The notes under the pieces were generated by a model that saw only the letters and a list, made by a program, of their open reading frames with translations, did no database searches and was not told the origin of the DNA. Position numbers and translations under genes: made by a program. From Bacteroidaceae bacterium (GTDB taxonomy: Bacteria; Bacteroidota; Bacteroidia; Bacteroidales; Bacteroidaceae), in the NCBI GenBank assembly GCA_017617235.1, contig JAFZWQ010000035.1, positions 1 through 50,845 on the forward strand: 50,845 bases of DNA. Direction: 5' to 3'. Shown piece by piece: positions 29,987 through 42,722 of the stretch; position 1 is the stretch's first letter, and every line of letters begins with the position of its first letter.

Positions 29987-30034
29987 CTTGTGATTTTATG
30001 TTTTAGAAGTTTAGTTGCTTAGGCTTTTTGAAGT

Positions 30035-30056
30035 TAGCGGAGTTAGCGGAGTTAAA
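30035..30056 (+). repeat. Nine-base tandem repeat at the island edge
   Basis: AGTTAGCGG twice and then AGTTAAAG lie just before the type I methylase relic, at the left boundary of the toxin/restriction island. Confidence 0.55.
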
Positions 30057-30138
30057 GACGATACTTTTGAAGGGTGAAACATCCAGTCAAATACATTCTT
30101 TTCCAGTTATTAAAAGAACAAGTTTGAAAAAAAATTTT

Positions 30139-30146
30139 TATATTTG
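30139..30146 (+). promoter_or_regulatory. -7 box upstream of the hsdM relic and RhuM-Fic gene
   Basis: TATATTTG matches the -7 consensus, but the nearest TTTG is only about 12 nt upstream, so the -33 part is weak. Confidence 0.45.
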
Positions 30147-30186
30147 TAGCGGAAACGCTATGAAAAGCAAGAAATAAACAAAAGAT

Positions 30187-30294
30187 ATGGATAATCAACA
30201 AAGGACATCCCTGAACTTTTGAAGCAGCGAGAGCCATCGTCTCGAAGCTGGAATCCGTGAGAAACTCGCAGGTATTGGGTTTAACGTGAAGTGA
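30187..30294 (+). pseudogene. Collapsed hsdM relic (both ends of a type I methylase gene)
   Basis: ATG at 30187 opens MDNQQRTSLNF, then a stop, then in the same frame 23 codons reading SSESHRLEAGIREKLAGIGF and three more residues before TGA at 30292. The last part looks like the C-terminal tail of HsdM, the methylase subunit of type I restriction systems. The middle of the gene is missing. The RhuM-Fic start follows 1 nt later, which is how rhuM genes often sit after hsdM. The assignment rests on a short tail. Confidence 0.5.
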
Positions 30295-30295
30295 T

Positions 30296-31267
30296 ATGGA
30301 AGAGAACAAAATCGTCATATATCAGACAGAGGACGGACAGACGCAGATTGATGTCCGTCTGGAGAACGAGACTGTGTGGCTAAATGTTGCCCAAGTGGCA
30401 ACGCTTTTTGACAAGGAAGAGTCAAATGTCAGAAGGCACATTCTGAATGCCTTTCGTGAAGGTGAACTTGAAAGAGATGAGAATAACGTGCATTTTTTAC
30501 ACGTTAATGACGTGAAGAAGCCTGTACCTTTCTATAGTCTTGATGTTATCATCTCCGTGGGCTACCGTGTTCATAGCAAACGAGGCACCGCTTTCCGTAT
30601 CTGGGCTCGCAAGGTCTTGAAGGACTACCTTGTCAAAGGTTATGCCGTCAACGAGCGTCTCCGCAAGGAGCAGATAGGAGAGTTGCGTCAGTTGGTGGGC
30701 ATGCTGGCGCGTACCATCCAGAACCAACCTTTGCTCTCTAACGATGAGACAAATGCTTTGTTTGAGGTGGTGACAGACTATACCTACGCTCTCGACACCC
30801 TCGACAATTACGACTACGAGCGCCTGTCAATTCAGAAAACCACAAAGGAAGAGCCGTTCCACGCCACCTATGAAAACGCTATGGAGGCTATCAATGGCTT
30901 GCGCGACAAATTTGGTGGCAGCAGTCTTTTTGGCAATGAAAAGGATGACTCTTTCAAAAGCAGTATCGGGCAGATTTATCAGACCTTCGGTGGTGAAGAA
31001 CTCTATCCCAGCGTAGAGGAGAAAGCTGCTATGTTACTCTATCTGGTTACGAAGAATCACTCCTTTAGCGACGGCAACAAACGTATTGCTGCCACGCTGT
31101 TCCTGTGGTTCCTTAACAACAACCGCGTTCTCTATCGCGCAGACGGCAGCAAGCGTATAGCTGACAACACCCTTGTGGCGCTTACCCTGATGATTGCAGA
31201 GAGCCGAACAGAGGAGAAGGATGTAATGGTGAAGGTGGTGGTGAATCTTATAAACCAACAAAATTAG
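30296..31267 (+). CDS. RhuM-Fic/Doc fusion protein
   Basis: This 323-residue protein has an N-terminal RhuM (virulence-protein) domain, about residues 1-130: IVIYQTEDGQTQIDVRLENE, PFYSLDVIISVGYRVHS. The C-terminal Fic/Doc domain carries HSFSDGNKRIAA with the catalytic His at residue 255. Fic enzymes transfer AMP or phosphate to target proteins. Genes of this kind are common inside type I restriction loci. It follows the hsdM relic and is 5 nt from the BRO-Fic gene. No separate antitoxin is visible; the inhibitory helix could not be identified. Confidence 0.88.
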   Translation: MEENKIVIYQTEDGQTQIDVRLENETVWLNVAQVATLFDKEESNVRRHILNAFREGELERDENNVHFLHVNDVKKPVPFYSLDVIISVGYRVHSKRGTAFRIWARKVLKDYLVKGYAVNERLRKEQIGELRQLVGMLARTIQNQPLLSNDETNALFEVVTDYTYALDTLDNYDYERLSIQKTTKEEPFHATYENAMEAINGLRDKFGGSSLFGNEKDDSFKSSIGQIYQTFGGEELYPSVEEKAAMLLYLVTKNHSFSDGNKRIAATLFLWFLNNNRVLYRADGSKRIADNTLVALTLMIAESRTEEKDVMVKVVVNLINQQN

Positions 31268-31272
31268 GGACG

Positions 31273-32148
31273 ATGAGTAAGAAGTCAATACGTTTTTTCA
31301 ATGATCGCGAGGTGCGAGCCGTGTGGGACGATGACCACAATAAGTGGTGGTTCTCGGCAACTGACATCGTTCGTGCCATCAACGATGAGGATGATTATAA
31401 GAAATGTCGCAACTATTGGAAATACCTGAAAGGTAAGATGGTTAAGGACGGTATTGAACTGGTTAGTGTCACTAACCACTTCAAATTCCAAGCCCCTGAC
31501 GGCAAACAACGTTTTGCCGATGCGCTTGATGCAGAGTGTGTTAAGACGGTAGCAAACAACTATCCCAATAATCGTGCTCGTAAATTTCTTGAATGGTTTA
31601 CCTATAGCGATAATAGCATCGATGGACAAAGTAAAAAGAAGGCCTATACCCTTATTGAGAGCGGCTTGTTGGATAGCATGGAGCCAGGAACGGTAAAGTG
31701 CTTGCAACAGATTCATGCCTATCTGTTTGGTGGTCTCTACGATTTTGCAGGGCAGATACGAACAAAAACTATTTGGAAGGATGGTACGCTATTTTGCCGT
31801 GCAGAGTATCTGGCGGAGAATCTGAGAAATATCGAGGCAATGCCAGAGACGACTTTCGACGAGATTGCCAACAAATATGTTGAGATGAATGTGGCTCATC
31901 CCTTTATGGAAGGAAATGGTCGCTCAACGCGCCTCTGGCTTGATTTGCTCTTCAAGAAACGTCTGAAGCTTTGCGTGGATTGGAGCAAGATTGACAAGAA
32001 AGCATATCTGGAAGCTATGCGTAGAAGTACAACTGATTCTACTGCCATCAAGACGTTGCTACAAGGGGCTATGACCGATAAAATTGATGACCGCGAGATA
32101 TTCATGAAGGGTATTGACTATTCATACTATTACGAGCAGGAGGATTAA
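31273..32148 (+). CDS. BRO-Fic fusion protein
   Basis: This 291-residue protein joins an N-terminal BRO-like domain (VRAVWDDDHNKWWFSATDIV, about residues 1-110) to a C-terminal Fic domain. The Fic motif is HPFMEGNGRSTR, with the catalytic His at residue 209; the loop before it (YLFGGLYDFAGQIRTKTIWK) is typical. It follows RhuM-Fic by 5 nt, so the two are probably co-expressed. In the same frame, right after its stop, the sequence continues as 43 open codons (32149-32280) that look like an HsdM tail. The target of AMP transfer is unknown. Confidence 0.87.
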   Translation: MSKKSIRFFNDREVRAVWDDDHNKWWFSATDIVRAINDEDDYKKCRNYWKYLKGKMVKDGIELVSVTNHFKFQAPDGKQRFADALDAECVKTVANNYPNNRARKFLEWFTYSDNSIDGQSKKKAYTLIESGLLDSMEPGTVKCLQQIHAYLFGGLYDFAGQIRTKTIWKDGTLFCRAEYLAENLRNIEAMPETTFDEIANKYVEMNVAHPFMEGNGRSTRLWLDLLFKKRLKLCVDWSKIDKKAYLEAMRRSTTDSTAIKTLLQGAMTDKIDDREIFMKGIDYSYYYEQED

Positions 32149-32280
32149 GACGATGAGCAGATAGACTTCGACACCAAGATGCGCCAATTGCAATCGGAAA
32201 TGCGCGACCTGTTGCAGCAGGAAGAAGCCAGCAAGCAGGAACTTAAATCACTCTTTGAGAAGTTAGGCTATAGCCTCTAA
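32149..32280 (+). pseudogene. Second HsdM C-terminal relic, in frame after the BRO-Fic stop
   Basis: Directly after the TAA of the BRO-Fic gene the same frame reads DDEQIDFDTKMRQLQSEMRD, then LLQQEEASKQELKSLFEKLG, YSL and stop. This coiled-coil tail resembles the C-terminus of type I methylases. There is no start codon of its own near the 5' end. It is either a leftover of a deleted hsdM or a former C-terminal extension of the Fic protein. Confidence 0.45.
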
Positions 32281-32287
32281 AACTAAC

Positions 32288-32355
32288 AAATTCTTGCTAA
32301 TTTTGCAAAAACTTGCAAGAATTGGCAAGAATTTAAAATATTATTTGTATCTTTG
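32288..32355 (+). promoter_or_regulatory. Promoter with inverted repeats before the Fic gene
   Basis: AAATTCTTGC (32288-32297) and GCAAGAATTT (32325-32334) form a perfect 10-bp inverted repeat; a further TTGCAAGAATT lies at 32313-32323. The -7 box TATCTTTG is at 32348-32355, so the right arm covers the -33 region. This layout suits a repressor, perhaps the Fic protein through its C-terminal winged helix. Confidence 0.6.
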
Positions 32356-32381
32356 CAGCAAGAATAAAGATAAGAGGTTTT

Positions 32382-33665
32382 ATGATAGAATTACCACCAA
32401 AGATTGATAAAAAAACGCTTGTCAATGCCTTGCTGAAGGGAAGTGATGCGGAAATCGCCACAATCGTTGATAAAGTCAATGCCGACTATGAGTATTGGGA
32501 TAAGGTAAAGTACAAGTCTTTACCTGAAGGATATACGCCCCAAATGCTTTGGACCTATGTCAAGGCCTCACGTTTGGGGAGTATGATGACTGTATGGAAT
32601 AAATATGGAATCAAACTGTGTATCACTAGTCAGATGCAGCGGATATGCCATGACTTTGATATGAAGTTTGGTAGTTTTTGGGAAGATGGTAACGATGCCC
32701 AAAATCCAGAAAAGAAATACTATCTGTCGAGTTCGCTGATGGAGGAAGCCATCTATTCCAGTAAGATGGAGGGCGCCTCCACCACTCGGGTTGTTGCCAA
32801 GGAGATGTTGAGGAAGAAGAAGTCACCTCAAAACAAGGCGCAGCAGATGATAGTCAACAACTATAATACGATTCAGTATATCGTAGACCATAAGGATGAC
32901 CCTTTGACTGAAGAAGGGCTGCTATACATTCATAGGCTGATGACAGAGAAAACTTTGGATAACCCCGATGACGCAGGACGCTTCAGGACAAACGACAAAG
33001 TTGTTGTGGCAGATATGGTAGAGGGCGATATTGTCTATACGCCGCCTTCCTATAAGGAAATTCCTGAGTTTACAGAAACCCTGTGCGGTTTCTTCAACAA
33101 CGATAGTCCGCGTACTTTTATCCATCCCATCATCAAGGGTATCATTGTCCACTTTATGTTGGCATATATGCATCCCTTTGTTGATGGTAATGGGCGGACG
33201 GCACGTGCCTTATTCTATTGGTATATGCTGAAAGAGAACTACAAGTTGACAGAGTATATGTCGATATCAAGGGTCATCGCAAAGTCAAAACCCAGTTATG
33301 AAAAAGCATTCCGTTATACAGAGAACGACGGAAACGATATGGGGTATTTTGTAGCTTATAACCTGAGAGCCCTGGAGCTTTCTTTCCAGCAGCTTCGTGA
33401 TTATATACAGCGGAAGCAACGAGAGAAGAAAGCAGCCAGCACTTTCATGATGGCTGGTAACGTCAATCAGCGGCAGGCAATCGTTCTACAACGGCTTACC
33501 GATGAACCAGACACAATCCTTACAGTAAAGGATGTACAAGAACTATTCTCTGTTTCATCTATGACAGCAAGAAAGGACTTGTCAGATTTAGTGCAACAGG
33601 GCTACTTGACTGAGATTGCCATCAACAAAGTAACTCGTGGGTATATAAAAAAGCAAGAAGGATAA
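32382..33665 (+). CDS. Fic family protein with N-terminal inhibitory helix and C-terminal winged helix
   Basis: This 427-residue protein has a Fic_N-type N-terminal domain, the self-inhibition motif S126xxxE130G131 (YSSKMEGA), and the Fic motif HPFVDGNGRTAR with catalytic His 264. The inhibitory Glu makes it a class II Fic AMP-transferase, normally held off by that helix. Residues 370-427 (LTVKDVQELFSVSSMTARKD) form a DeoR/GntR-like winged helix, which may bind the inverted repeats upstream. It has its own promoter, apart from the RhuM-Fic/BRO-Fic pair. It is the third Fic protein within 3.4 kb. Confidence 0.9.
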   Translation: MIELPPKIDKKTLVNALLKGSDAEIATIVDKVNADYEYWDKVKYKSLPEGYTPQMLWTYVKASRLGSMMTVWNKYGIKLCITSQMQRICHDFDMKFGSFWEDGNDAQNPEKKYYLSSSLMEEAIYSSKMEGASTTRVVAKEMLRKKKSPQNKAQQMIVNNYNTIQYIVDHKDDPLTEEGLLYIHRLMTEKTLDNPDDAGRFRTNDKVVVADMVEGDIVYTPPSYKEIPEFTETLCGFFNNDSPRTFIHPIIKGIIVHFMLAYMHPFVDGNGRTARALFYWYMLKENYKLTEYMSISRVIAKSKPSYEKAFRYTENDGNDMGYFVAYNLRALELSFQQLRDYIQRKQREKKAASTFMMAGNVNQRQAIVLQRLTDEPDTILTVKDVQELFSVSSMTARKDLSDLVQQGYLTEIAINKVTRGYIKKQEG

Positions 33666-33712
33666 ATGGAATACAAACATTAGGAAAGAAGTAAAACGAA
33701 AACTATAAAGAT

Positions 33713-34540
33713 ATGGCAAATACGAACATAATAACGGTGAAAGATGTCAATATCAGGACGATGACAAAGGATGGCAAAGACTACATCTGCATTACAGACA
33801 TCGCTAAACAGAAAAACGAAACCGACCCTAACGGGGTGATAGGCAACTGGATGCGTAACCGCAATACTATTGAGTACCTCGGTTTGTGGGAAACTCTATA
33901 TAATCCGAATTTTAACCCCCTCGAATTCGAGGGGTTTAGAAGTCAGGCTGGTTTGAATGCCTTCACCCTCTCACCGTCACAGTGGATTGAGACAACACGT
34001 GCTATAGGACTAATCTCGCAGGCAGGACGTTATGGTGGAACCTATGCCCGCTCAGACATCGCCTTCAAGTTTGCAAACTGGGTAGCTGTAGAGTTTGAGC
34101 TTTATTTGGTGATGGAGTTCCAACGCCTGAAAGCCAAGGAGCAGGAGCAGATTGGTTGGACGGCCAAGCGCGAACTTTCGAAAATCAACTATCGCATCCA
34201 TACCGACGCCATCAAGCGCCATCTGATACCTGAAGAAGTGACTCGAGAGCAAGCAGCGATGAAGTATGCTGAGGAAGCCGACGTACTCAATGTGGCGATG
34301 TTTGGCATGATTGCCAAACAATGGCGCGAGGCCAATCCTGAACTCAAGGGCAATATCCGCGACTATGCCACCATTAATGAGCTCATCTGTCTCTCGAATA
34401 TGGAAAATATCAACGCCGTGCTCATCAACGACGGTATGCCACAGGGTGAACGACTCATCAAACTCAATCAGATTGCCATTCACCAGATGCAAGTGCTGGA
34501 GGATAATGAAGGGAGGAAGTTGTTGAAGGCTGCGAATTAG
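33713..34540 (+). CDS. KilA-N domain protein
   Basis: This 275-residue protein has the N-terminal KilA-N domain: DYICITDIAKQK, VIGNWMRNRNTIEYLGLWE, then GGTYARSDIAFKFANWVAVE. KilA-N is a DNA-binding domain of phage and viral proteins. The C-terminal part (TINELICLSNMENINAVLIN) is helical and found in similar Bacteroidetes proteins in restriction islands. It lies 47 nt after the Fic gene. Its leader shares GTAAAACGAAAAC and AAGATATG with the leader of the next gene. Its role in the locus is not known. Confidence 0.85.
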   Translation: MANTNIITVKDVNIRTMTKDGKDYICITDIAKQKNETDPNGVIGNWMRNRNTIEYLGLWETLYNPNFNPLEFEGFRSQAGLNAFTLSPSQWIETTRAIGLISQAGRYGGTYARSDIAFKFANWVAVEFELYLVMEFQRLKAKEQEQIGWTAKRELSKINYRIHTDAIKRHLIPEEVTREQAAMKYAEEADVLNVAMFGMIAKQWREANPELKGNIRDYATINELICLSNMENINAVLINDGMPQGERLIKLNQIAIHQMQVLEDNEGRKLLKAAN

Positions 34541-34621
34541 TGAGAGCAAAGAAAACAAGTTTTCATTTGCCGAGCGGAAGCAGGCTCGACCGGAAGTCAA
34601 GTAAAACGAAAACCCGAAGAT

Positions 34622-37600
34622 ATGATTCAGATAGAGAACTTAAAAGCTGTTTTATCCGAAATTGGATTTGTCAAAGAATCTATGGGCGATTATTACAAGC
34701 GGGATTATGATACTTGTATTGTTGCTGTTGACTTTGACAACAAGAAAATAATATATCCAGAAGGCAAAGGGCTTAAAGTGCATGACAAAACCACAAGTAA
34801 CTTTGACAAAAAAGAGAATTTTGTTGTATTGGAATGTGTGTGCCGTTTGCTTGAGAAAGGATATAGACCTGAACATATAGAATTGGAACCGCGATGGACG
34901 TTGGGGCATGATCCAAGTGGCGGAAAAGCTGATATTCTTGTTAAGGATAGTGAAGAAAAATCTTTGATTATTATTGAATGTAAGACAGCAGGTGAGAAGT
35001 TCAACAAAGAGAAGAAGAACACCGAAGAAGATGGTGGTCAGCTATTTAGCTATTGGCAGCAGGAAATATCTACCCGATGGCTTGCTCTCTATGCCTCTGA
35101 CTGGAAAGAAAATGGTCTTTCGTACAACTGCCTTGTGATTAATTGTACAGATGATGCCAACATCGCAAAGATGGCAGAAAAAGACAATGACGTAAAGATT
35201 TTCTCCAAGGCTCGTAATGACAAAGAACGTTTTGAAGTATGGGAAGAAACATACCAGAAGCAATGGCTTGATGATGTAATCTTTAACGAAGAAAGCCAAG
35301 CATATAAAATAGGAATACCACCATTAAGGAAGAAGAAACTTAAAGATTTTACTCCAGACGACCGCATCGTAAATCGTTTTGAGGAAATCCTTCGACATAA
35401 CAACGTTAGCGATAAGGAAAACGCCTTTAACCGTTTAGTGGCTCTCTTCATTTGCAAATTGGTGGATGAGATAAAAAAGCAAGACTTCGATGTTGTCGAT
35501 TTCCAATACAAACAAGGTCAAGATACATACGAAAGCCTGCAAGACCGCCTGCAGCATCTTCATCAGCAGGGCATGGAAGAGTTTATGAAGGAAAAAATCT
35601 TCTATGTGGAGGCAGATTATGCAGAGCGTCTATTCATGCAATATACTGGCCGACAGAGGAAAGCAGCCATTGAGGATTTGAACCGCACTATCCGCATTTT
35701 GAAGTTCTATAGTAACAACGACTTTGCCTTCAAGGATGTGCATAACGAAGAGCTTTTCTATCAGAATGGCAAGATACTTGTTGAGGTCGTACAATTGTTC
35801 CAACCTTATCGCATCGTTTATCCCAGTAAACATCAATTCCTTGGTGATTTATTCGAGCAACTGCTTAACAAAGGATTTAAGCAAAACGAAGGCCAGTTCT
35901 TTACGCCGACTCCAATTACTCGTTTCATTTGGGATTCGTTGCCCTTACAGAATTATATCAATGAACACGACCTGCCACGAGTAATTGACTATGCTTGTGG
36001 TGCTGGCCATTTCTTGACAGAAGGAGTTGAGGCTATTAATGCTGTGCGTCCTGATGGTGATAATAGTTGGGTGGAGAATCATATTTATGGAATAGAGAAA
36101 GACTATCGATTGGCCCGTGTGTCGAAAATCTCCATGTTTATGAATGGTGCTGGTGGCAGTAATATCATCTTTGGTGATGGTTTAGAGAATTATCCTGAAA
36201 AGGGAATTACGCCTGCCTCGTTTGATATACTTGTTGCCAATCCTCCGTATGCAGTTAAAGGATTCAAGCAACATCTAAAGCTCAAAAACAACTCATTCTC
36301 AATTCTTGATAAGGTAAGTAGGGATGGGAATGAAATAGAGATGTTGTTTGTGGAACGCATCGCACAACTATTAAAACCTAAGGGTATAGCAGCAGTTGTT
36401 CTTCCTTCTTCCATTCTTAACGATACGTCTTCAAGTGGTATAGCGGCACGTGAAAACTTATTGCAAAACTTTCTTGTTCATGCTATTGTGGCATTTGGTA
36501 GTCAGACTTTTGGAGCTACAGGAACAAATACGATAACATTATTCCTTGAGCGGTATAATGAACCACCTCGTTATGCCGAATTAGCAAATGATACCGTGGA
36601 TGGGATTTTATCTCATGGTGGAGATGCAGATTGGGAAGATGCGCAGGTTTTGGATGCATATATTACTCATCAAAGAATAGACAAAGAAACGTATCTTGCT
36701 TTCTTGCGACAATCCTTGACAAAGGAAGATGTCCTCGCTGATGCCTATTTGAAAGGCTATTACGAGTCATTTGCCTGGGGAACTATCAAATATCCTCAGC
36801 GTAGTAGCGATGAAGAGATGGCACAAATCAGAAAAGAAAAGTTCTATGCATGGGCATTGACGATAGAGAAAGAGAAACTTTACTACTTCTCGCTTGTTTA
36901 TCAGCAGCAGACGCTTGTCATTACTGCCCCAACAGATAATAAGGAACAAAAGGATTTCTTAGGATACGAATGGAGCAACAGAAAAGGACAAGAGGGCATT
37001 AAGATAAAGCAGCCAGGTGGAAAACTCTATAAAGATGAAGACCGATTTGCAAGAGGGACTTTAGCATGTGCAGTTAGAAATTCATTCTGGGGAGCTTCAA
37101 CTATAGGAATCTCAGAGGATATTGCAAAGCACATTAAAGTATATTGGTTAAAAGATATGATGGACTTCTCTCTTTCAGGGTTTAACAAGTCTATCACATT
37201 GACTGCAAAAATTGAAGACAAAATCAATAGTAAGTATCCACTGCTTCGGCTCAATGACCCTAATAAGTTTGAATTGAGAATAGGCCGTCGCGTTCTTTCG
37301 TCTGATATTGAGGAACAAGGTCAATATCCAGTATATAGCGCAAATGTAAAAAGTGAATTTGGTTATATTAACCATTTACTATTTGATGATTTTGACAAGC
37401 CTTCAATACTATGGGGAATCGATGGCGATTGGATGGTTGCATATATCAACAAGGATATTGCATTTTATCCTACTGATCATTGTGGTGTATTAAGAGTTTT
37501 AGATCCAGAGATAGAACCCTATTATATAGCCTTAGCACTTGAAGAAGTGGGAAAACACTATGGTTTTTCTCGCTCTTTCCGAGCATCAACTGAGAGAATT

Positions 37601-37777
37601 TCGGCTGTTCAACTCCCTCTTCCACCAAAAGTAATTCAAGATCAATTAGTGTCAGAATGCAGAGCCATAGACGAAGAATATAATACTAGCCGCATGAGCA
37701 TCGAAACCTACAAGCAGAGAATAGCGGAGATATTTGACAGGCTTGAAGTTGTGTCTATGCAAAATGGGGGGGGGTAA
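34622..37777 (+). CDS. Fused restriction-methylation-specificity enzyme (type IIG-like), probably phase variable
   Basis: This 1051-residue protein carries three functions. Residues 60-230 form an HsdR_N-like nuclease with a PD-(D/E)xK site (D104, E119-x-K121 in IIIECKT). Residues 410-700 form an N6-adenine methylase with motif I VIDYACGAGHFLT (D456) and motif IV ANPPYAVKGF (N540). Residues 885-1040 form one type I-style target-recognition domain (IGRRVLSSDIEEQGQYPVYS). The frame ends GGG plus stop in a run of nine G (37766-37774). A second recognition domain follows in another frame. Eight or eleven G would fuse the two into a protein of about 1,230 residues. The gene is A+T-rich, a sign of transfer. 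Confidence 0.9.
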   Translation: MIQIENLKAVLSEIGFVKESMGDYYKRDYDTCIVAVDFDNKKIIYPEGKGLKVHDKTTSNFDKKENFVVLECVCRLLEKGYRPEHIELEPRWTLGHDPSGGKADILVKDSEEKSLIIIECKTAGEKFNKEKKNTEEDGGQLFSYWQQEISTRWLALYASDWKENGLSYNCLVINCTDDANIAKMAEKDNDVKIFSKARNDKERFEVWEETYQKQWLDDVIFNEESQAYKIGIPPLRKKKLKDFTPDDRIVNRFEEILRHNNVSDKENAFNRLVALFICKLVDEIKKQDFDVVDFQYKQGQDTYESLQDRLQHLHQQGMEEFMKEKIFYVEADYAERLFMQYTGRQRKAAIEDLNRTIRILKFYSNNDFAFKDVHNEELFYQNGKILVEVVQLFQPYRIVYPSKHQFLGDLFEQLLNKGFKQNEGQFFTPTPITRFIWDSLPLQNYINEHDLPRVIDYACGAGHFLTEGVEAINAVRPDGDNSWVENHIYGIEKDYRLARVSKISMFMNGAGGSNIIFGDGLENYPEKGITPASFDILVANPPYAVKGFKQHLKLKNNSFSILDKVSRDGNEIEMLFVERIAQLLKPKGIAAVVLPSSILNDTSSSGIAARENLLQNFLVHAIVAFGSQTFGATGTNTITLFLERYNEPPRYAELANDTVDGILSHGGDADWEDAQVLDAYITHQRIDKETYLAFLRQSLTKEDVLADAYLKGYYESFAWGTIKYPQRSSDEEMAQIRKEKFYAWALTIEKEKLYYFSLVYQQQTLVITAPTDNKEQKDFLGYEWSNRKGQEGIKIKQPGGKLYKDEDRFARGTLACAVRNSFWGASTIGISEDIAKHIKVYWLKDMMDFSLSGFNKSITLTAKIEDKINSKYPLLRLNDPNKFELRIGRRVLSSDIEEQGQYPVYSANVKSEFGYINHLLFDDFDKPSILWGIDGDWMVAYINKDIAFYPTDHCGVLRVLDPEIEPYYIALALEEVGKHYGFSRSFRASTERISAVQLPLPPKVIQDQLVSECRAIDEEYNTSRMSIETYKQRIAEIFDRLEVVSMQNGGG

Positions 37778-38315
37778 TTTGTCGGTAATTAGTAATTTAT
37801 GCAAATACGTAACCCTTAGGGCAAATGAAATAAATATGGAATCGTACATCACTACTGATAACATGTTGCAGAACTGTGAGGGTATCCGTCCATACGATGG
37901 GACGGATAACATCACCTCTGCAATTGCGTATCAAACAGGGGACATCCTGCTCTCAAACATCCGTCCATATCTGAAGAAAATGTGGCAAGCTGACCACAAT
38001 GGGAGTTGCTCTCCAGATGTGCTTGTGCTTCGCCCTTACAAAGATAAAGTCGATGAGCGTTTCCTGTATTACAGCTTGCGTCGTGATGTGTTCTTTGATT
38101 ACATAATGAATGAAGCTGGCACAAGAGGGCTGAAGATGCCACGTGGCAATAAAGACGGAATTATCCGGTATCGTATAACTTTGCCAGATATGGAAGAACA
38201 AAGAAAAGTTGCAGCCGAGATTTCACATTGGGATGCACTAATAGCAGAGGCAAAGAATACAATGGCAGGTTGTATTATCCGCAAACAAGCTATTATGGAC
38301 AAATACTTGAAATAA
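37734..38315 (+). CDS. Second target-recognition domain (HsdS-like), out of frame beyond the 9-G tract
   Basis: From about position 37773 this frame codes a second specificity half: NLCKYVTLRANEINMESYIT, then GDILLSNIRPYLKKMWQADH and the C-terminal repeat IRYRITLPDMEEQRKVAAEI, ISHWDALIAEAKNTMAG. It has no convincing start of its own; the nominal ATG lies inside the previous gene. I read it as the 3' part of the fused enzyme, joined when the G tract has 8 or 11 bases. It could also be made separately at a low level by internal initiation or slippage. Confidence 0.8.
   Translation: MTGLKLCLCKMGGGNLSVISNLCKYVTLRANEINMESYITTDNMLQNCEGIRPYDGTDNITSAIAYQTGDILLSNIRPYLKKMWQADHNGSCSPDVLVLRPYKDKVDERFLYYSLRRDVFFDYIMNEAGTRGLKMPRGNKDGIIRYRITLPDMEEQRKVAAEISHWDALIAEAKNTMAGCIIRKQAIMDKYLK
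37766..37774 (+). repeat. Nine-G homopolymer tract at the frame switch
   Basis: Nine consecutive G end just before TAA. With 9 G (as here) the upstream enzyme stops; with 8 or 11 G it continues into the second recognition domain; with 10 G it stops four codons later. Such tracts slip during replication. Confidence 0.9.
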
Positions 38316-38331
38316 TTAAACACCTAACGAT

Positions 38332-38486
38332 ATGAACGAGAAACTATATTTGGATACGCTCAAGAAATATCAGAAGTGGGCGAAGGAGAATAAAAGCAGG
38401 TAGAGCAGGACTTTGCTGAACGTCGTGCTATGTGCGAAGATATGCAAGAATCATCAGGGACAGGTTCTTTGATTCGTAACCCATAA
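38332..38486 (+). pseudogene. Small frameshifted relic after the restriction gene
   Basis: ATG 38332 opens MNEKLYLDTLKKYQKWAKEN plus three residues and stops at 38401. In a neighbouring frame the sequence goes on EQDFAERRAMCEDMQESSGT to a stop at 38484. One frame change joins both into about 50 residues. I do not recognise the family. Confidence 0.35.
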
Positions 38487-38545
38487 CAATTGTGCCAGAC
38501 ACAATGATGTAACATTTTTGTGTTTTCTATACTATTTGAATGAAG

Positions 38546-38566
38546 ACATTAGACATTAGACATTAG
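38546..38566 (+). repeat. Heptamer tract (ACATTAG, 3 units)
   Basis: Three perfect tandem ACATTAG units lie 10 nt before the start of the second four-helix-bundle gene. Its sequence differs from the heptamers around the first such gene. Confidence 0.8.
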
Positions 38567-38576
38567 AATTTTGAAT

Positions 38577-38942
38577 ATGAAATCAAGTGATTATAGACAA
38601 TTGAAAGTGTGGCAGAAAGCGATGGACTTAACGGTAGAGATATACAGCCTCGTCAAACGTCTGCCGCGTGAAGAAACCTACGCTCTCTCTGACCAAATGC
38701 GAAGGGCCGTTGTCTCAATCCCTTCGAACATTGCTGAGGGACAGGGGCGAAATTCGGACAAAGAGTTCATAAACTTCCTGTCAATTGCACGTGGTTCGTT
38801 GTGGGAGCTGGAGACTCAAATAGAAATATGTGAGCGGCTACACTACATAGACTCTAAACTAGCGTCTAAAGTCTATATACTAACGACGGAGGTTAGTAAG
38901 ATGCTAAATTCCCTTTCAAACTCGCTAAAGTCTAAAGACTAG
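38577..38942 (+). CDS. Four-helix-bundle protein (S23/IVS, Avd-like fold), second copy
   Basis: This 121-residue helical protein has the family signature QMRRAVVSIPSNIAEGQGR and FLSIARGSLWELETQIEICE, more typical than the copy at 2416. The start is ATG 38577 (MKSSDYRQLKVWQKAMDL); a TTG two codons earlier is less likely. It is bounded upstream by three ACATTAG heptamers, and its last codons and the following bases are written in irregular CTAAAG-type repeats (38926-38953). Like the other copy, it sits between unrelated genes and beside short tandem repeats. Its function is unknown. Confidence 0.9.
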   Translation: MKSSDYRQLKVWQKAMDLTVEIYSLVKRLPREETYALSDQMRRAVVSIPSNIAEGQGRNSDKEFINFLSIARGSLWELETQIEICERLHYIDSKLASKVYILTTEVSKMLNSLSNSLKSKD

Positions 38943-38954
38943 GGCCTAAAGACC

Positions 38955-38978
38955 AATAATGACGGATTAAAACGTTAT
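38955..38978 (+). repeat. Direct repeat, left copy, flanking rhuM
   Basis: AATAATGACGGA plus TTAAAACGTTAT recurs nearly unchanged at 40088-40111, on the other side of the RhuM gene. Confidence 0.65.
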
Positions 38979-38998
38979 AAAAATAAAGAAGACGAGAT

Positions 38999-40036
38999 AT
39001 GAAAGAAGAAATAGGAAATAATAAAGGAGAGATTATCATCTATCAGTCAGAGGATGGTAAGATAAAACTGGATGTCAGGTTGGAGGAGAAAACGGTATGG
39101 CTGACACAGGAACAAATTGCTCAGCTGTATAGTAAGGGCAGATCAACGATAACAGAACACATCTCTAACATCTTCAAGGAAGGAGAATTGGAAAGAGAGA
39201 AGGTATGTCGGAAATTCCGACATACCACTCAACATGGTGCTGTAGAAGGGAAGACACAGAGTCAAGAAGTGACACTCTACAACCTCGATGTAATCATTTC
39301 TGTAGGTTATCGCGTGAAGTCTATTGTGGGCACACGCTTCCGTCAGTGGGCTACAGAGCGGCTGGCGGAATACATCATCAAGGGCTTCACGATGGACGAT
39401 GAGCGACTGAAGAATCTTGGTGGTGGGGGCTACTGGAAGGAGTTGTTGGATCGTATCCGTGACATCCGTTCATCTGAGAAGGTGATGTACAGACAGGTGC
39501 TTGACCTCTATGCTACCAGTGTTGATTATGACCCACGGACAGATGCGTCGAAACTGTTCTTTAAGATGGTGCAGAACAAACTGCACTATGCAGCTCACGG
39601 ACATACGGCTGCAGAGGTGATTTATGATCGTGCGGATGCTGACAAACCTTTTATGGGATTGACATCGTTCAAAGGTGAACTGCCTTGCATTAACGATATT
39701 AAGATAGCAAAGAATTATCTCACGGCTGAGGAACTGAAGATATTGAATAACATCGTTTCTGGATATTTTGACTTTGCAGAGACTCAGGCCCTTCGTCATC
39801 GACCTATGTATATGGAAGACTATGTTCGTCAGTTAGACAACATCTTGTCTGCCAATGGCGATGAACTGCTGGAAGGGGCAGGTTCTGTATCTCATGAGGA
39901 AGCAATGGATAAGGCTCTGATTGAGTACAGGAAATTCCTAGTGAAGACATTGTCGCCAGTAGAACAGGATTATCTAGAGTCTATCAAACTCATTGAGAAG
40001 AAAACCAAGAAGAAAGGCAGCTATAATAAGATGTAA
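38999..40036 (+). CDS. RhuM family protein
   Basis: This 345-residue protein has the same N-terminal domain as the RhuM-Fic protein at 30296 (IIIYQSEDGKIKLDVRLEEK, LYNLDVIISVGYRVKS) but a different C-terminal half, SEKVMYRQVLDLYATSVDYD, typical of the stand-alone RhuM family found in pathogenicity islands and type I restriction loci. No Fic motif is present. The biochemical role is unknown. Direct repeats of about 25 nt lie before and after the gene (38955-38978, 40088-40111), as in a cassette. Confidence 0.9.
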   Translation: MKEEIGNNKGEIIIYQSEDGKIKLDVRLEEKTVWLTQEQIAQLYSKGRSTITEHISNIFKEGELEREKVCRKFRHTTQHGAVEGKTQSQEVTLYNLDVIISVGYRVKSIVGTRFRQWATERLAEYIIKGFTMDDERLKNLGGGGYWKELLDRIRDIRSSEKVMYRQVLDLYATSVDYDPRTDASKLFFKMVQNKLHYAAHGHTAAEVIYDRADADKPFMGLTSFKGELPCINDIKIAKNYLTAEELKILNNIVSGYFDFAETQALRHRPMYMEDYVRQLDNILSANGDELLEGAGSVSHEEAMDKALIEYRKFLVKTLSPVEQDYLESIKLIEKKTKKKGSYNKM

Positions 40037-40087
40037 GATGTTAGAAGGAAGATGTATGATGGAGTCACGGATCTACGGAAACAAGAA

Positions 40088-40111
40088 ATAATGACGGAAT
40101 AAAAAAGTTAT
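40088..40111 (+). repeat. Direct repeat, right copy, flanking rhuM
   Basis: AATAATGACGGA followed by ATAAAAAAGTTA, matching 38955-38978 with one substitution block and one inserted base. Confidence 0.65.
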
Positions 40112-40135
40112 TAATATCCTAAAAACAATACAACT

Positions 40136-40528
40136 ATGAAAAAGATTTTATTTTGGAGCATGATGTTGCTCATGGTAATGGCGTTGCCTGTGATGGTGGC
40201 GTGCGGAGATGATGAAGATACTGTAGACCTGAATGAGATTGAAGGAACGTGGATGTGTGTGAAGAGTACGGATTCGTATCAAGGGCAGTCGGTCGATGGA
40301 CTGCTCGTTGGTGCAGAGATTACCATACGCTCAAATGGAACATATACCTCGACATCAGATAATTTCGGGCGGTCGGGTACCTATACCTATAACGGTGAAA
40401 CTTTTACGGCAAAAAGCAATACTGGCGATACGTTTATTGTGAAAATCAAGGTAAAAGGTAATGATATGAATTGGGTAGGTACAGCCAGCAATGGCGTCTC
40501 GTTTAATTATAGTTTCAAGAGAGAGTAA
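40136..40528 (+). CDS. Small lipocalin-like lipoprotein
   Basis: This 130-residue protein has a lipoprotein signal (FWSMMLLMVMALPVMVACGD; lipobox Cys at about residue 23) followed by acidic residues and then a small beta-barrel pattern: LNEIEGTWMCVKSTDSYQG, GTYTSTSDNFGRSGTYTYNG and a last strand VSFNYSFKRE. This fits the lipocalin-like lipoproteins common in Bacteroidales, whose ligands are mostly unknown. The protein is probably anchored in the outer membrane. It follows the RhuM repeat cassette by 24 nt and precedes a hairpin at 40551-40586. Confidence 0.75.
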   Translation: MKKILFWSMMLLMVMALPVMVACGDDEDTVDLNEIEGTWMCVKSTDSYQGQSVDGLLVGAEITIRSNGTYTSTSDNFGRSGTYTYNGETFTAKSNTGDTFIVKIKVKGNDMNWVGTASNGVSFNYSFKRE

Positions 40529-40550
40529 AGGTATACAAAAAATGTTTGAA

Positions 40551-40598
40551 AAATCCCTGTCGTTTCTTTGGAAGTGATGGGGATTTGTTATATCTTTG
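40551..40598 (+). promoter_or_regulatory. Hairpin overlapping a promoter
   Basis: AAATCCC (40551-40557) pairs with GGGATTT (40580-40586). TTTG (40567-40570) in its loop and TATCTTTG (40591-40598) after it are spaced 20 nt, as in a -33/-7 promoter. The layout matches the elements at 1231, 29934 and 46592, though the sequence differs. Confidence 0.6.
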
Positions 40599-40665
40599 CG
40601 GAGCAATCGGGCAGTAATGTGCACGTTGCAAATTTACTATATTTTTAATTATCTAACATACAACC

Positions 40666-42108
40666 ATGAAGAAGTATCTGATGAAGATATCGGGCGTGCA
40701 TTATGCAGCAAATAACGACTCTGTGGCCGGCCAGACGGAAACGGAGGAGATGCACGTGCGCACTCGTCAGATGCTTGCCTGGCTGAGGGACGAGAGGCCT
40801 ATAGTGGTGCTGGCTGCAGAACCCACGAACCACTGGAATCCCAATGCCGTGACGGCCCGTGCTCGCGGACGACGTATAGGACGTGTAGCGGACGAATGCC
40901 TTGATGTTGCCAACGGTCTGCTGGCATCGAGTGGTCGTGGCATGCTGACGGCCCGGGTGGTGGATGTTGCCGTAAAGGAGCACGGGTATGCAATGGTGGA
41001 GGTGTATGCCGAGGAGGCATCCCCTGTTCAGTCGTCGAAGGCTACGGATATAGAGTGGGATATGTGGATGTCCGACGGACAGCCGCTGTTGCCGCCCGAC
41101 GAACAGTTGGAGGCCGAGCTGGAAGCCTCTTTCGTGCTGGATACCATGTTGCTGCCCAATATGGCTGAGGCGGATTTCGACGAGCTGAAGGAGTACGTGG
41201 AGATATGGATGCGCGGCAGTGGTCACGACCTCAGTCGCGAGGCCCGTCAGGCACGTTCGATGTACATAGAGATGCTGGAGTCGGCACAATGCAAGGAGGT
41301 GCGCCAGCTGGCAGAACCGTTGAAGGAACAGCGCACTTCGATGTGCGGACGCAATGCCCTGGACGAGCGGTGTGGACTGTGGTGGCAGCAACAATTGGCG
41401 TCTGCAGACATGAAAAGGTTGTGGCACCAATGGACTGTGCGCCACGATGGAAGGCTGTGGAATGGTCTGCAGCAAATAGACATCCTGCTGAGGCAATTGC
41501 CAGGCGAGTTGTACAACGATATAGGTCAGTTGGACGTGATGTTGGCCCGTTTGTACTATATGAACACGCCTCGACAGGCCTTGCGAAGCGTTATTACTAT
41601 GCTGATGTTGCGCGAACTCTCGTGTCGAGAGCTGCATGTTGCCATGCGCCCCATGACGGAAGATGAATACAGACAGCATTCGCTCGTCGAGAATCCTATG
41701 GACATTCCCACCACCATTGGTCGGGTGCTGTCCTATGGCGAATCGCTGAACAGCAAAGCGAAGAAACAGACCATCGAGGAATTGTGTAAGTGGCTGAACG
41801 AGGATTTCCAGCAAAACGCAGTCAAAGAGGCGAACGAACTGGATTCCGACGAAGCAAGGAAGTATTGGCAACGGTTGCAGAAAGATGGTTTTGTGGACGC
41901 TGCACACCAACTGATGCCCTCGACCACACGCCAGCAGGCCATGTATATTGCTGAAGTTTTTGCCGAACGCCTTGGCCTGAAGGCAAAATGGAAGCCTTTT
42001 CAGGAGCTGTGGGGCATCAACAACCTGGCACAGGAGAAGAATAAATTCATGGAAACAGGCAAGTCGCCCTCGCGTTCCCAACGGATAGACAAGATTTTCG
42101 AAGATTAG
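40666..42108 (+). CDS. HIRAN-like domain protein of unknown function
   Basis: This 480-residue protein begins with a segment that resembles a HIRAN domain (VLAAEPTNHWNPNAVTARAR, then RIGRVADECLDV, residues 45-85), a fold that binds DNA ends in some repair proteins. The remainder is helical with no family I can name; it contains ELCKWLNEDFQQNAVKEANE and ends QRIDKIFED. There is no signal peptide or membrane segment. It has its own promoter and is followed by a strong terminator at 42138-42184. The HIRAN call is tentative. Confidence 0.6.
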   Translation: MKKYLMKISGVHYAANNDSVAGQTETEEMHVRTRQMLAWLRDERPIVVLAAEPTNHWNPNAVTARARGRRIGRVADECLDVANGLLASSGRGMLTARVVDVAVKEHGYAMVEVYAEEASPVQSSKATDIEWDMWMSDGQPLLPPDEQLEAELEASFVLDTMLLPNMAEADFDELKEYVEIWMRGSGHDLSREARQARSMYIEMLESAQCKEVRQLAEPLKEQRTSMCGRNALDERCGLWWQQQLASADMKRLWHQWTVRHDGRLWNGLQQIDILLRQLPGELYNDIGQLDVMLARLYYMNTPRQALRSVITMLMLRELSCRELHVAMRPMTEDEYRQHSLVENPMDIPTTIGRVLSYGESLNSKAKKQTIEELCKWLNEDFQQNAVKEANELDSDEARKYWQRLQKDGFVDAAHQLMPSTTRQQAMYIAEVFAERLGLKAKWKPFQELWGINNLAQEKNKFMETGKSPSRSQRIDKIFED

Positions 42109-42137
42109 CTAACGCGCTGATTCTCAACACCGATTTC

Positions 42138-42184
42138 CCCTATATAGGATGTGTTATAGCTCCTATATAGGGCTTTTCTTTTTG
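42138..42184 (+). terminator. Terminator after the HIRAN-like gene
   Basis: CCCTATATAGGA (42138-42149) pairs perfectly with TCCTATATAGGG (42161-42172), followed by CTTTTCTTTTT. Confidence 0.88.
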
Positions 42185-42194
42185 CATTTATCAC

Positions 42195-42202
42195 GAACTT
42201 CG
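42195..42202 (+). promoter_or_regulatory. Possible -7 box before the structured leader
   Basis: GAACTTCG followed by CAG resembles the TAnCTTCG boxes seen elsewhere in the window, with a G in the first position. No good -33 element is seen. Confidence 0.35.
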
Positions 42203-42206
42203 CAGT

Positions 42207-42317
42207 CGGAATCCAAGGGAGGAAAGCCCCAGCGTGGCTCCCGCCAGTCTCGGTAAACATCTGGCCATAGGACTGGTAACGCTACAGATGTTCACTTCCT
42301 AAAAAAAAATTAGAACT
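42207..42317 (+). ncRNA. Structured leader RNA with possible pseudoknot
   Basis: The 110-nt leader of the gene at 42318 has a stem GGGAG/CTCCC (42217-42242, extended by GCC/GGC). Two further stems cross each other: CCAGTC (42244-42249) with GACTGG (42271-42276), and AACATCTG (42256-42263) with CAGATGTT (42285-42292). Crossing order makes an H-type pseudoknot possible; otherwise the two stems would be alternatives. I do not recognise it as a known riboswitch. Confidence 0.5.
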
Positions 42318-42722
42318 ATGGAAGCAAAGAACATTTTTTCTGAGAATGCCAACCGCGAGGGTTGGAAGTGTAACACTTATCTGGGTGTGGACCTAAAGAC
42401 TTATATGCGCAGCGACAGGCGCACGAAGACGGGTAGGGAGTACCGGGGCGTGCTGAGGCGCGACTGGGATGCCCAGCTGGACGAGTTCCTGTGCCGCGAT
42501 GCGCACTACACGTTCATCGAATGCGAAACGCGTAAGGCCGACAAACGTAATCCGCGCGTCTTCGAGGGCCGCTACATCACGGTTACCCGCAGCGACAACG
42601 GCTCGCTGAATCCGAACTTCAAACGGATAATGATGCGACCTGGATTCAACGTGGACGGTTATGCGCTGGAAGTCGCCAACGAAATCCGACTGGCATTAAA
42701 AGGTCTTGTAGAGAGTGAATAA
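42318..42722 (+). CDS. Hypothetical protein, first gene of the DUF3987/HU module
   Basis: This 134-residue basic protein is not one I can place in a family. It has KTYMRSDRRTKTGREYRGVL, then a FIECETRKADKRNPRVFEGR segment and a C-terminal helix YALEVANEIRLALKGLVES. Many Arg and Lys residues suggest nucleic-acid binding, but no motif proves it. No signal peptide is present. The gene is preceded by the structured leader at 42207-42317 and followed by a 220-nt inverted-repeat region, then the DUF3987-like gene. Its G+C-rich codon use differs from the toxin island upstream. Confidence 0.65.
   Translation: MEAKNIFSENANREGWKCNTYLGVDLKTYMRSDRRTKTGREYRGVLRRDWDAQLDEFLCRDAHYTFIECETRKADKRNPRVFEGRYITVTRSDNGSLNPNFKRIMMRPGFNVDGYALEVANEIRLALKGLVESE

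Follow-up and report, generated by a model that had tools for sequence, protein, structure and literature searches.

A poly-G tract between two recognition domains of a single-chain restriction-modification enzyme as a probable phase-variable specificity switch

Why should the gene of a restriction-modification (R-M) enzyme stop at a run of nine G when a second recognition domain follows directly in another frame? This is the arrangement in the window (the whole 50,845-nucleotide stretch of a Bacteroidaceae bacterium genome that was analyzed), and the initial annotation described it as a fused nuclease-methylase-specificity gene ending at nine G, with an HsdS-like domain next in a different frame. 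The coordinates (Table 1) and the Methylase_S profile PF01420, which the second frame matches at 22.3 bits against a Pfam cut-off of 22, barely over it (E 1.7e-4), confirm this description. The second frame, open from 37725 to a stop ending at 38315, also matches the PADLOC profile Specificity_I (E 1.5e-27) and the HsdS structures 5ybb_D and 3okg_A (E about 3e-10), and its C-terminus, KQAIMDKYLK, resembles the KQAILDKYLK of several fused relatives. The homopolymer lies inside a reading frame and its length sets the frame, as at a contingency locus; the arithmetic proposed earlier, by which 8 or 11 G join both frames and 9 G stops the protein after one domain, is right as far as lengths go. We consider it probable that the gene encodes a phase-variable single-chain Type IIG/IIB R-M enzyme, in which poly-G at the boundary between the recognition domains (TRD1 and TRD2) toggles the product between a HaeIV-like and an AloI/TstI-like form. 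Replication slippage would cause the length changes, and the recognition sequence would change with them.

The enzyme and its tract

As encoded, ORF1 carries nuclease, N6-methylase and specificity (S) parts in one chain, in the order of enzymes of the AloI kind, with a single TRD behind R and M as in those of the HaeIV kind. It matches the PADLOC profile REase_MTase_IIG (PDLC03624; profile length 1271) with an E value of 6.9e-292, the best stretch aligning residues 1-879 with profile positions 1-896. The residues D104, E119 and K121 of the nuclease are invariant in 38/38 aligned proteins, and form a motif that we take to be of the PD-(D/E)xK kind. A Pfam search of ORF1 gave no match in the nuclease part, and the assignment is based on this invariance, on the PADLOC profile and on the match to BsaXI. 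All 38 proteins likewise share D456, G460, G462, N540, P541 and P542 of the methylase. An AlphaFold model of ORF1 (mean pLDDT 84.6, pTM 0.68) places helices at 1003-1022 and 1027-1040 behind TRD1, and this whole helix region is retained in the short form. The top Foldseek matches of the model in the PDB are the RM chains of the Type IIB enzyme BsaXI (best E 1.9e-28), with a whole-chain TM of just 0.35-0.41; the domain arrangement of the two is therefore not the same. The best PDB sequence match is also BsaXI RM (8w0p_A, E 7.1e-36), its best stretch being the methylase at 405-645. The 9-G allele of the window has 1051 aa plus a separate frame, whereas naturally fused relatives, L049 (1244 aa) and L016 (1249 aa) among them, hold both TRDs in a single chain close to 1250 aa.

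Table 1. Features of the enzyme gene and its tract in the window
Feature	Position	Strand	Basis or remark
ORF1: fused nuclease, N6-adenine methylase and TRD1	34622..37777	+	1051 aa; Type IIG/IIB, one-TRD form at 9 G
Nuclease motif D104 ... E119-C-K121	34931..34984	+	Invariant residues in aligned proteins
N6_Mtase domain, residues 404-646, NPPY 540-543	35831..36559	+	Pfam PF02384, E 4.5e-33
TRD1 (Methylase_S, residues 883-1011)	37268..37654	+	PF01420, E 6.1e-11
Central helix region after TRD1, residues 1003-1040	37628..37741	+	AlphaFold model of ORF1
ATG in TRD2 frame overlapping the tract; possible separate TRD2 start at 9 G	37764..37766	+	Not conserved: 1/18 split alleles
TRD2 frame: another HsdS-like recognition domain, in a frame different from that of ORF1	37764..38315	+	183 aa from ATG
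Run of nine G between TRD1 and TRD2; putative site of slippage	37766..37774	+	Sequence; position kept in 28/81 genes
TAA stop of ORF1, immediately 3' of the tract	37775..37777	+	Sequence

A run of nine G is ordinary in this DNA. Shuffles of the window contained on average 0.18 such runs, with at least one in 13 of 100 shuffles, and the genome has 11 separate places with at least 8 G, 6 of those with at least 9 G; the idea that the run is rare in itself was rejected on these counts. What is not a matter of chance is the position of the tract, rather than a 9-G run as such. No recognition-domain gene was recognized at three other G runs of the genome (L001, L004 and L007). The longest run found in the genome has 16 G (G000:C47:56495-56510). 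A scan of 30000-42500 gave no RNA element near the switch at gathering score.

The tract among relatives

Relatives were collected by a pattern-seeded scan of the genomes of 84,980 species, which gave 185, and the best 80 were kept; with the window these make a set of 81 genes, analyzed over the first 3640 nt of each. Every G run of at least 7 in this set (28/28) lies between 3090 and 3300 nt of the gene, at the domain boundary; the three remaining zones, 277,052 bases in total, contain not a single one, and C runs of that length are absent from all zones. Tract-bearing genes are a minority: a tract of 7-11 G stands at the TRD1/TRD2 boundary in the window and in 27 of the best 80 relatives (of 185). 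A further G8 allele, on the viral contig L089, brings the tract alleles to 29, of which 18 are split and 11 fused, the fused share being near the one third expected if all tract lengths were equally common; one of the fused, L081, is scored as fused across the tract, yet its ORF1 is broken upstream. Most of these alleles come from metagenome-assembled genomes (MAGs), where homopolymer lengths can be wrong, and such an error is possible in any single record. According to their record titles, many of the relatives derive from samples of gut or rumen.

The closest comparison is between two records titled Actinotignum schaalii, whose identity is 100.000% in the 3143 nt preceding the tract and 99.8% in the 520 nt that follow it; L044 has 11 G and is split, whereas L045 has 10 G and is fused. 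This is a length difference between near-identical strains, subject to homopolymer sequencing error. Split and fused alleles also face each other in L048 (G10, split) and L052 (G9, fused), 85% identical over 3199 nt upstream, and in L089 (G8, split) and L039 (G9, fused), 91% identical over 2622 nt upstream. L058 (6 G) and L072 (7 G), 95% identical over 3795 nt, are both split. No further strain of the window's own species was found among 399 genomes of the family and 393 of the order; at the cut-offs used, gene matches occurred in 19 of the former and 10 of the latter (own genome included), mostly distant.

A tree of 74 rows, from which 7 of the 81 genes were omitted (L017, L059, L065, L066, L068, L074 and L081), was built by a quick method; its branches are supported by SH-aLRT alone, and one place where long branches meet was flagged. 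Its rows comprise 27 genes with a tract, 41 fused genes without a run of at least 7 G, and 6 short ones, namely five one-TRD relatives and L058, in which TRD2 lies in another frame. By parsimony the tract label changes 11 times, at least 8 of these changes being forced by starred branches, against an average of 22 with shuffled labels; the tree gives such changes without direction, as gains or losses. Tracts were found in Bacteroidota, Bacillota and Actinomycetota and in one MAG labeled Saccharimonadota.

A mobile or phage gene was also considered and rejected: tblastn of plasmid and phage collections gave no place at 60% identity or more, and the single plasmid place that covered 80% of the query did so at 28.8% identity. 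Among viral contigs, a first scan found one relative (L089) and a second scan with alignment found 34 loci, L089 included; the 11 best new loci of these 34 (L126-L136) have no G run of at least 7 in the gene. The contig classed as viral (L089, IMGVR_UViG_3300007961_000135) carries the switch gene in a split state with ORF1 also broken upstream; its fused counterpart L039 is from a Ruminococcus MAG, and the contig may be a provirus edge or misclassified.

The two forms and the competing explanations

A model of the S part of L049, a naturally fused relative, has a mean pLDDT of 86.2 and a pTM of 0.75. TRD1 is followed by a helix at 157-199, the tract-coded residues at about 202-205 (placed from coordinates), TRD2 from 207 and a further helix at 341-379. 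Among HsdS chains the best E value is that of 3okg_A (2.7e-23, TM 0.45) and the best TM that of 7vs4_C (0.76/0.77), and the BsaXI S subunit matches with an E of 4.2e-15. In this model the tract sits in a hinge behind the central helix and before TRD2, so the short form of the window would retain the HsdS-type pairing helix; in HsdS proteins, the central helix pairs the two halves (PMC3874165).

We propose that slipped-strand changes in the tract would make the gene alternate between two products. At nine G the short form, R-M-TRD1 of 1051 aa, keeps the whole catalytic part, TRD1 and the central helix; it is predicted to act as a homodimer and, as HaeIV does, to read a symmetric bipartite site. 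In relatives the long form, R-M-TRD1-TRD2, is intact at about 1220-1270 aa, and it would read an asymmetric bipartite site, as AloI and TstI do. Because the recognition domains are common to both activities, restriction and methylation would change together, and a population would be mixed in its methylation and restriction patterns.

The sequence behind the tract is of interest for the short form. The distance to a stop, taken as the larger of the two wrong frames after the tract, has a median of 5 codons, against 18 at other places in the same genes, which served as control (Fisher p 2.9e-6 for early stops, with related alleles counted as independent). The stops are quick in 24 of 28 alleles, and the opposite is seen in the other four (L044, L045, L050 and L088). 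Five relatives (L037, L060, L063, L064 and L069) consist of R-M-TRD1 only and have no G tract, and no TRD2 was visible by eye behind them in 700 nt in three frames. The single TRD of these relatives belongs to the type of TRD1 in the window (47-57% identity), a type that the search favors because it selected for resemblance to ORF1. That R-M-TRD1-only relatives exist with this TRD type supports the possibility of an active 9-G form. Their match to it is inexact, since only L037 retains the helix region of the 9-G form: L060 differs there, and L063, L064 and L069 end about 30 residues earlier, without the last part of the central helix. From these relatives, together with the precedents of NgoAV and H. 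pylori discussed below, we infer that both forms would be active. The window's TRD1 type is also the TRD2 of 20 of the 28 tract genes, so that by sequence a recognition domain of this type appears to move between slots; such domain movement has been described for the S genes of H. pylori (PMC3077401).

The same tract could instead be an ON/OFF switch, phase variable as proposed here but leaving the one-TRD protein made at nine G inactive and the enzyme off. Other Type IIG phase variation, for example that of Cj0031, is of this type (PMC4889913), and TRD1 alone of H. pylori JHP1422 did not modify the expected palindrome (PMC3936762). However, the Cj0031 tract is flanked on both sides by conserved domains with DNA-contact residues (PMC4889913), whereas that of the window comes after complete R, M and TRD1 parts and the central helix. 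Together with the one-TRD relatives of the same TRD type, though L037 alone keeps the same form of helix region, and with the clean C-terminus that quick wrong-frame stops preserve in most alleles, this leads us to regard an ON/OFF switch as unlikely.

The remaining alternatives concern what becomes of TRD2 in split alleles, where it is open for 168-190 codons 3' of the tract in 29/29 alleles, fused ones included. Pairs of split alleles with a TRD2 identity above 55% (13 pairs among 17 split alleles) gave TRD2 pN/pS ratios of 0.18-0.43 in all 13; raw pN/pS was used because dN/dS was not computable for most pairs, synonymous changes being saturated, and with pS near saturation in most pairs the true ratios are therefore probably lower. 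TRD2 thus looks selected in split alleles. This, and its open frame in every allele, argue against TRD2 being a dying remnant or the frame break a homopolymer error of assembly, which we hold to be highly improbable even though most alleles come from MAGs, the window's own genome is 85.53% complete in 50 contigs, and L081 and L089 are broken elsewhere in ORF1 too. Splits are seen, too, at as few as 7 G (L034, L072 and L088), and the split records of Leucobacter (L047), Lactococcus (L088) and A. schaalii (L044) have titles that do not mark them as MAGs. TRD2 might alternatively be made separately from the ATG at the tract and re-associate with R-M-TRD1, in which case specificity would hardly change; the overlap of this ATG with the end of ORF1 is a layout permitting coupled translation. 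Among the 18 split alleles, however, only that of the window has an ATG for the TRD2 frame at the tract or 5' of it, and 4 have any of ATG, GTG or TTG there. The window's near relatives L009, L010 and L023 lack the ATG, and the TRD2 frame of the split A. schaalii allele L044 offers its first start codon 206 nt from the tract start. Such a split but jointly acting enzyme is accordingly improbable, and two genes with their own starts were rejected as the pattern of the family. A slip of RNA polymerase or of the ribosome on the G tract, giving both proteins from one allele without DNA variation, is more improbable still: recoding on homopolymers is known (PMC5009743, PMC4256274) and the stop codon right after the tract could favor slipping, but DNA length does vary, the near-identical pair included, and 11 of 29 alleles are fused. 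Recoding could act in addition to DNA slippage.

The initial annotation had named two observations as counting against a slippage switch, a tract always of nine G and relatives with two separately started genes. The relatives gave neither, with lengths of 7-11 G and the scarcity of start codons just described, and the conserved place of the tract, in both split and fused alleles, supports the slippage-switch interpretation. The split alleles are most simply explained if TRD2 is translated regularly within the fused protein, and the split would then be reversible.

Known systems and the surroundings of the gene

A close counterpart in design is NgoAV, a Type I R-M system of Neisseria gonorrhoeae, in which poly-G at the end of the first TRD gene joins or separates a second by a change of frame; its one-TRD form reads GCAN8TGC and its fused form GCAN7STCA (PMC9577141). 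As in NgoAV, the tract of the window lies between TRD1 and TRD2. Unlike NgoAV, where hsdS encodes a separate subunit and R is separate too, the window has R, M and S in a single fused polypeptide rather than separate HsdS and HsdR subunits; its gene would work like NgoAV and is not a member of that group. The H. pylori genes HP1353-HP1354/JHP1272 are Type IIG, as here, and the frame set by a second homopolymer adds a C-terminal domain that changes the site (PMC3936762). These enzymes differ from that of the window in resembling MmeI and TaqII, in marking one strand only and in using C repeats, and their extra piece is a small domain similar to part of a TRD, compared with the HsdS-like second TRD of the window (PMC3936762). 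H. pylori also provides a precedent for one-TRD HsdS (PMC3936762).

AloI, PpiI and TstI are single-chain Type IIB enzymes with the order R-M-TRD-TRD (PMC3874165, PMC4027205). Compared by description only, they are like the fused relatives, R-M-TRD1-TRD2 in one chain of about 1250 aa, and the available text of these two sources mentions no phase-variable tract in them. HaeIV acts as two copies of R-M-[GAY] on the symmetric site GAYN5RTC (PMC3874165); with one TRD behind R and M it is, again by description only, like the 9-G form, and no switch is mentioned for it in the available text of that source. Slippage appears to take the gene of the window back and forth between the HaeIV and the AloI architecture. 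BsaXI, of composition (RM)2S, is related through the nearest solved RM structure (8w0p; PMC11997821) and a related S fold; it differs in that S is a separate subunit and in that the sequence match lies mainly in the methylase. An artificial BsaXI S subunit with a double TRD1 gave cleavage near the symmetric AC N5 GT (PMC9159934).

CjeI (Cj1051c) of Campylobacter jejuni is a two-TRD single chain listed with AloI (PMC3874165). Four clonal outbreak isolates had C tracts (as printed for the genome) of 9, 10, 9 and 9 in this gene (PMC5135748), and the CjeI group has phase-variable homologues in 22 Campylobacter genomes, with 26 others without (PMC6321876). The available text of PMC5135748, PMC6321876, PMC4889913, PMC4687069 and PMC5013579 does not state the place of the tract within cjeI; should it lie at the TRD1/TRD2 boundary, Campylobacter may share the design that we describe for other phyla. 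Published work already covers both phase-variable Type IIG genes and homopolymers that switch specificity; given the precedents of H. pylori and NgoAV and the possible sharing with CjeI, we regard the present case as a variation on a known kind of switch. Among the titles and abstract beginnings listed from the open-licence literature, in which most subscription papers are absent, none concerned a single-chain AloI-like enzyme with a homopolymer between TRD1 and TRD2, which is weak evidence of absence.

What such a gene would add is the use of the NgoAV and H. pylori trick in a single-chain Type IIB-like enzyme of Bacteroidota, Bacillota and Actinomycetota. AloI and CjeI are about 1250 aa long, and their action has been called a mystery, as one TRD lacks an RM part (PMC3874165); natural one-TRD and two-TRD versions of one enzyme bear on this puzzle of two TRDs per RM. 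We judge the chances to be even that the switch is one of stoichiometry as well as specificity, between symmetric 1RM:1TRD and asymmetric 1RM:2TRD forms, gained or lost at least 8 times within one family and across three or more phyla. If so, nature supplies matched pairs for the study of how AloI-type 1RM:2TRD enzymes act, and the methylation motifs of such bacteria are predicted to switch between symmetric and asymmetric within one population.

A distant relative of the enzyme (29% identity) is carried by the Lactobacillus gasseri plasmids pHL20_1 and pLgVSI26 (L124 and L125; 99.1% identical over 3.9 kb), with a G tract at another place, near residue 290 (L124:3744-3752 and L125:3744-3751). 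One strain has nine G and a split gene, the other eight G and an open frame of 1251 codons; the split state would cut the N-terminal nuclease part off from the methylase. In the genome of the window, further recognition-domain-like frames, with a match to the same Type IIG profile, lie at G000:C3:32306-36684. The enzyme gene itself is preceded in the window (30296-34540) by RhuM-Fic, Fic, SoFic-like and KilA-N genes and followed (38574-40036) by a four-helix-bundle (23S IVP) gene and a RhuM gene. Several of these flanking genes match PADLOC candidate defense families, and the enzyme is probably part of a defense island.
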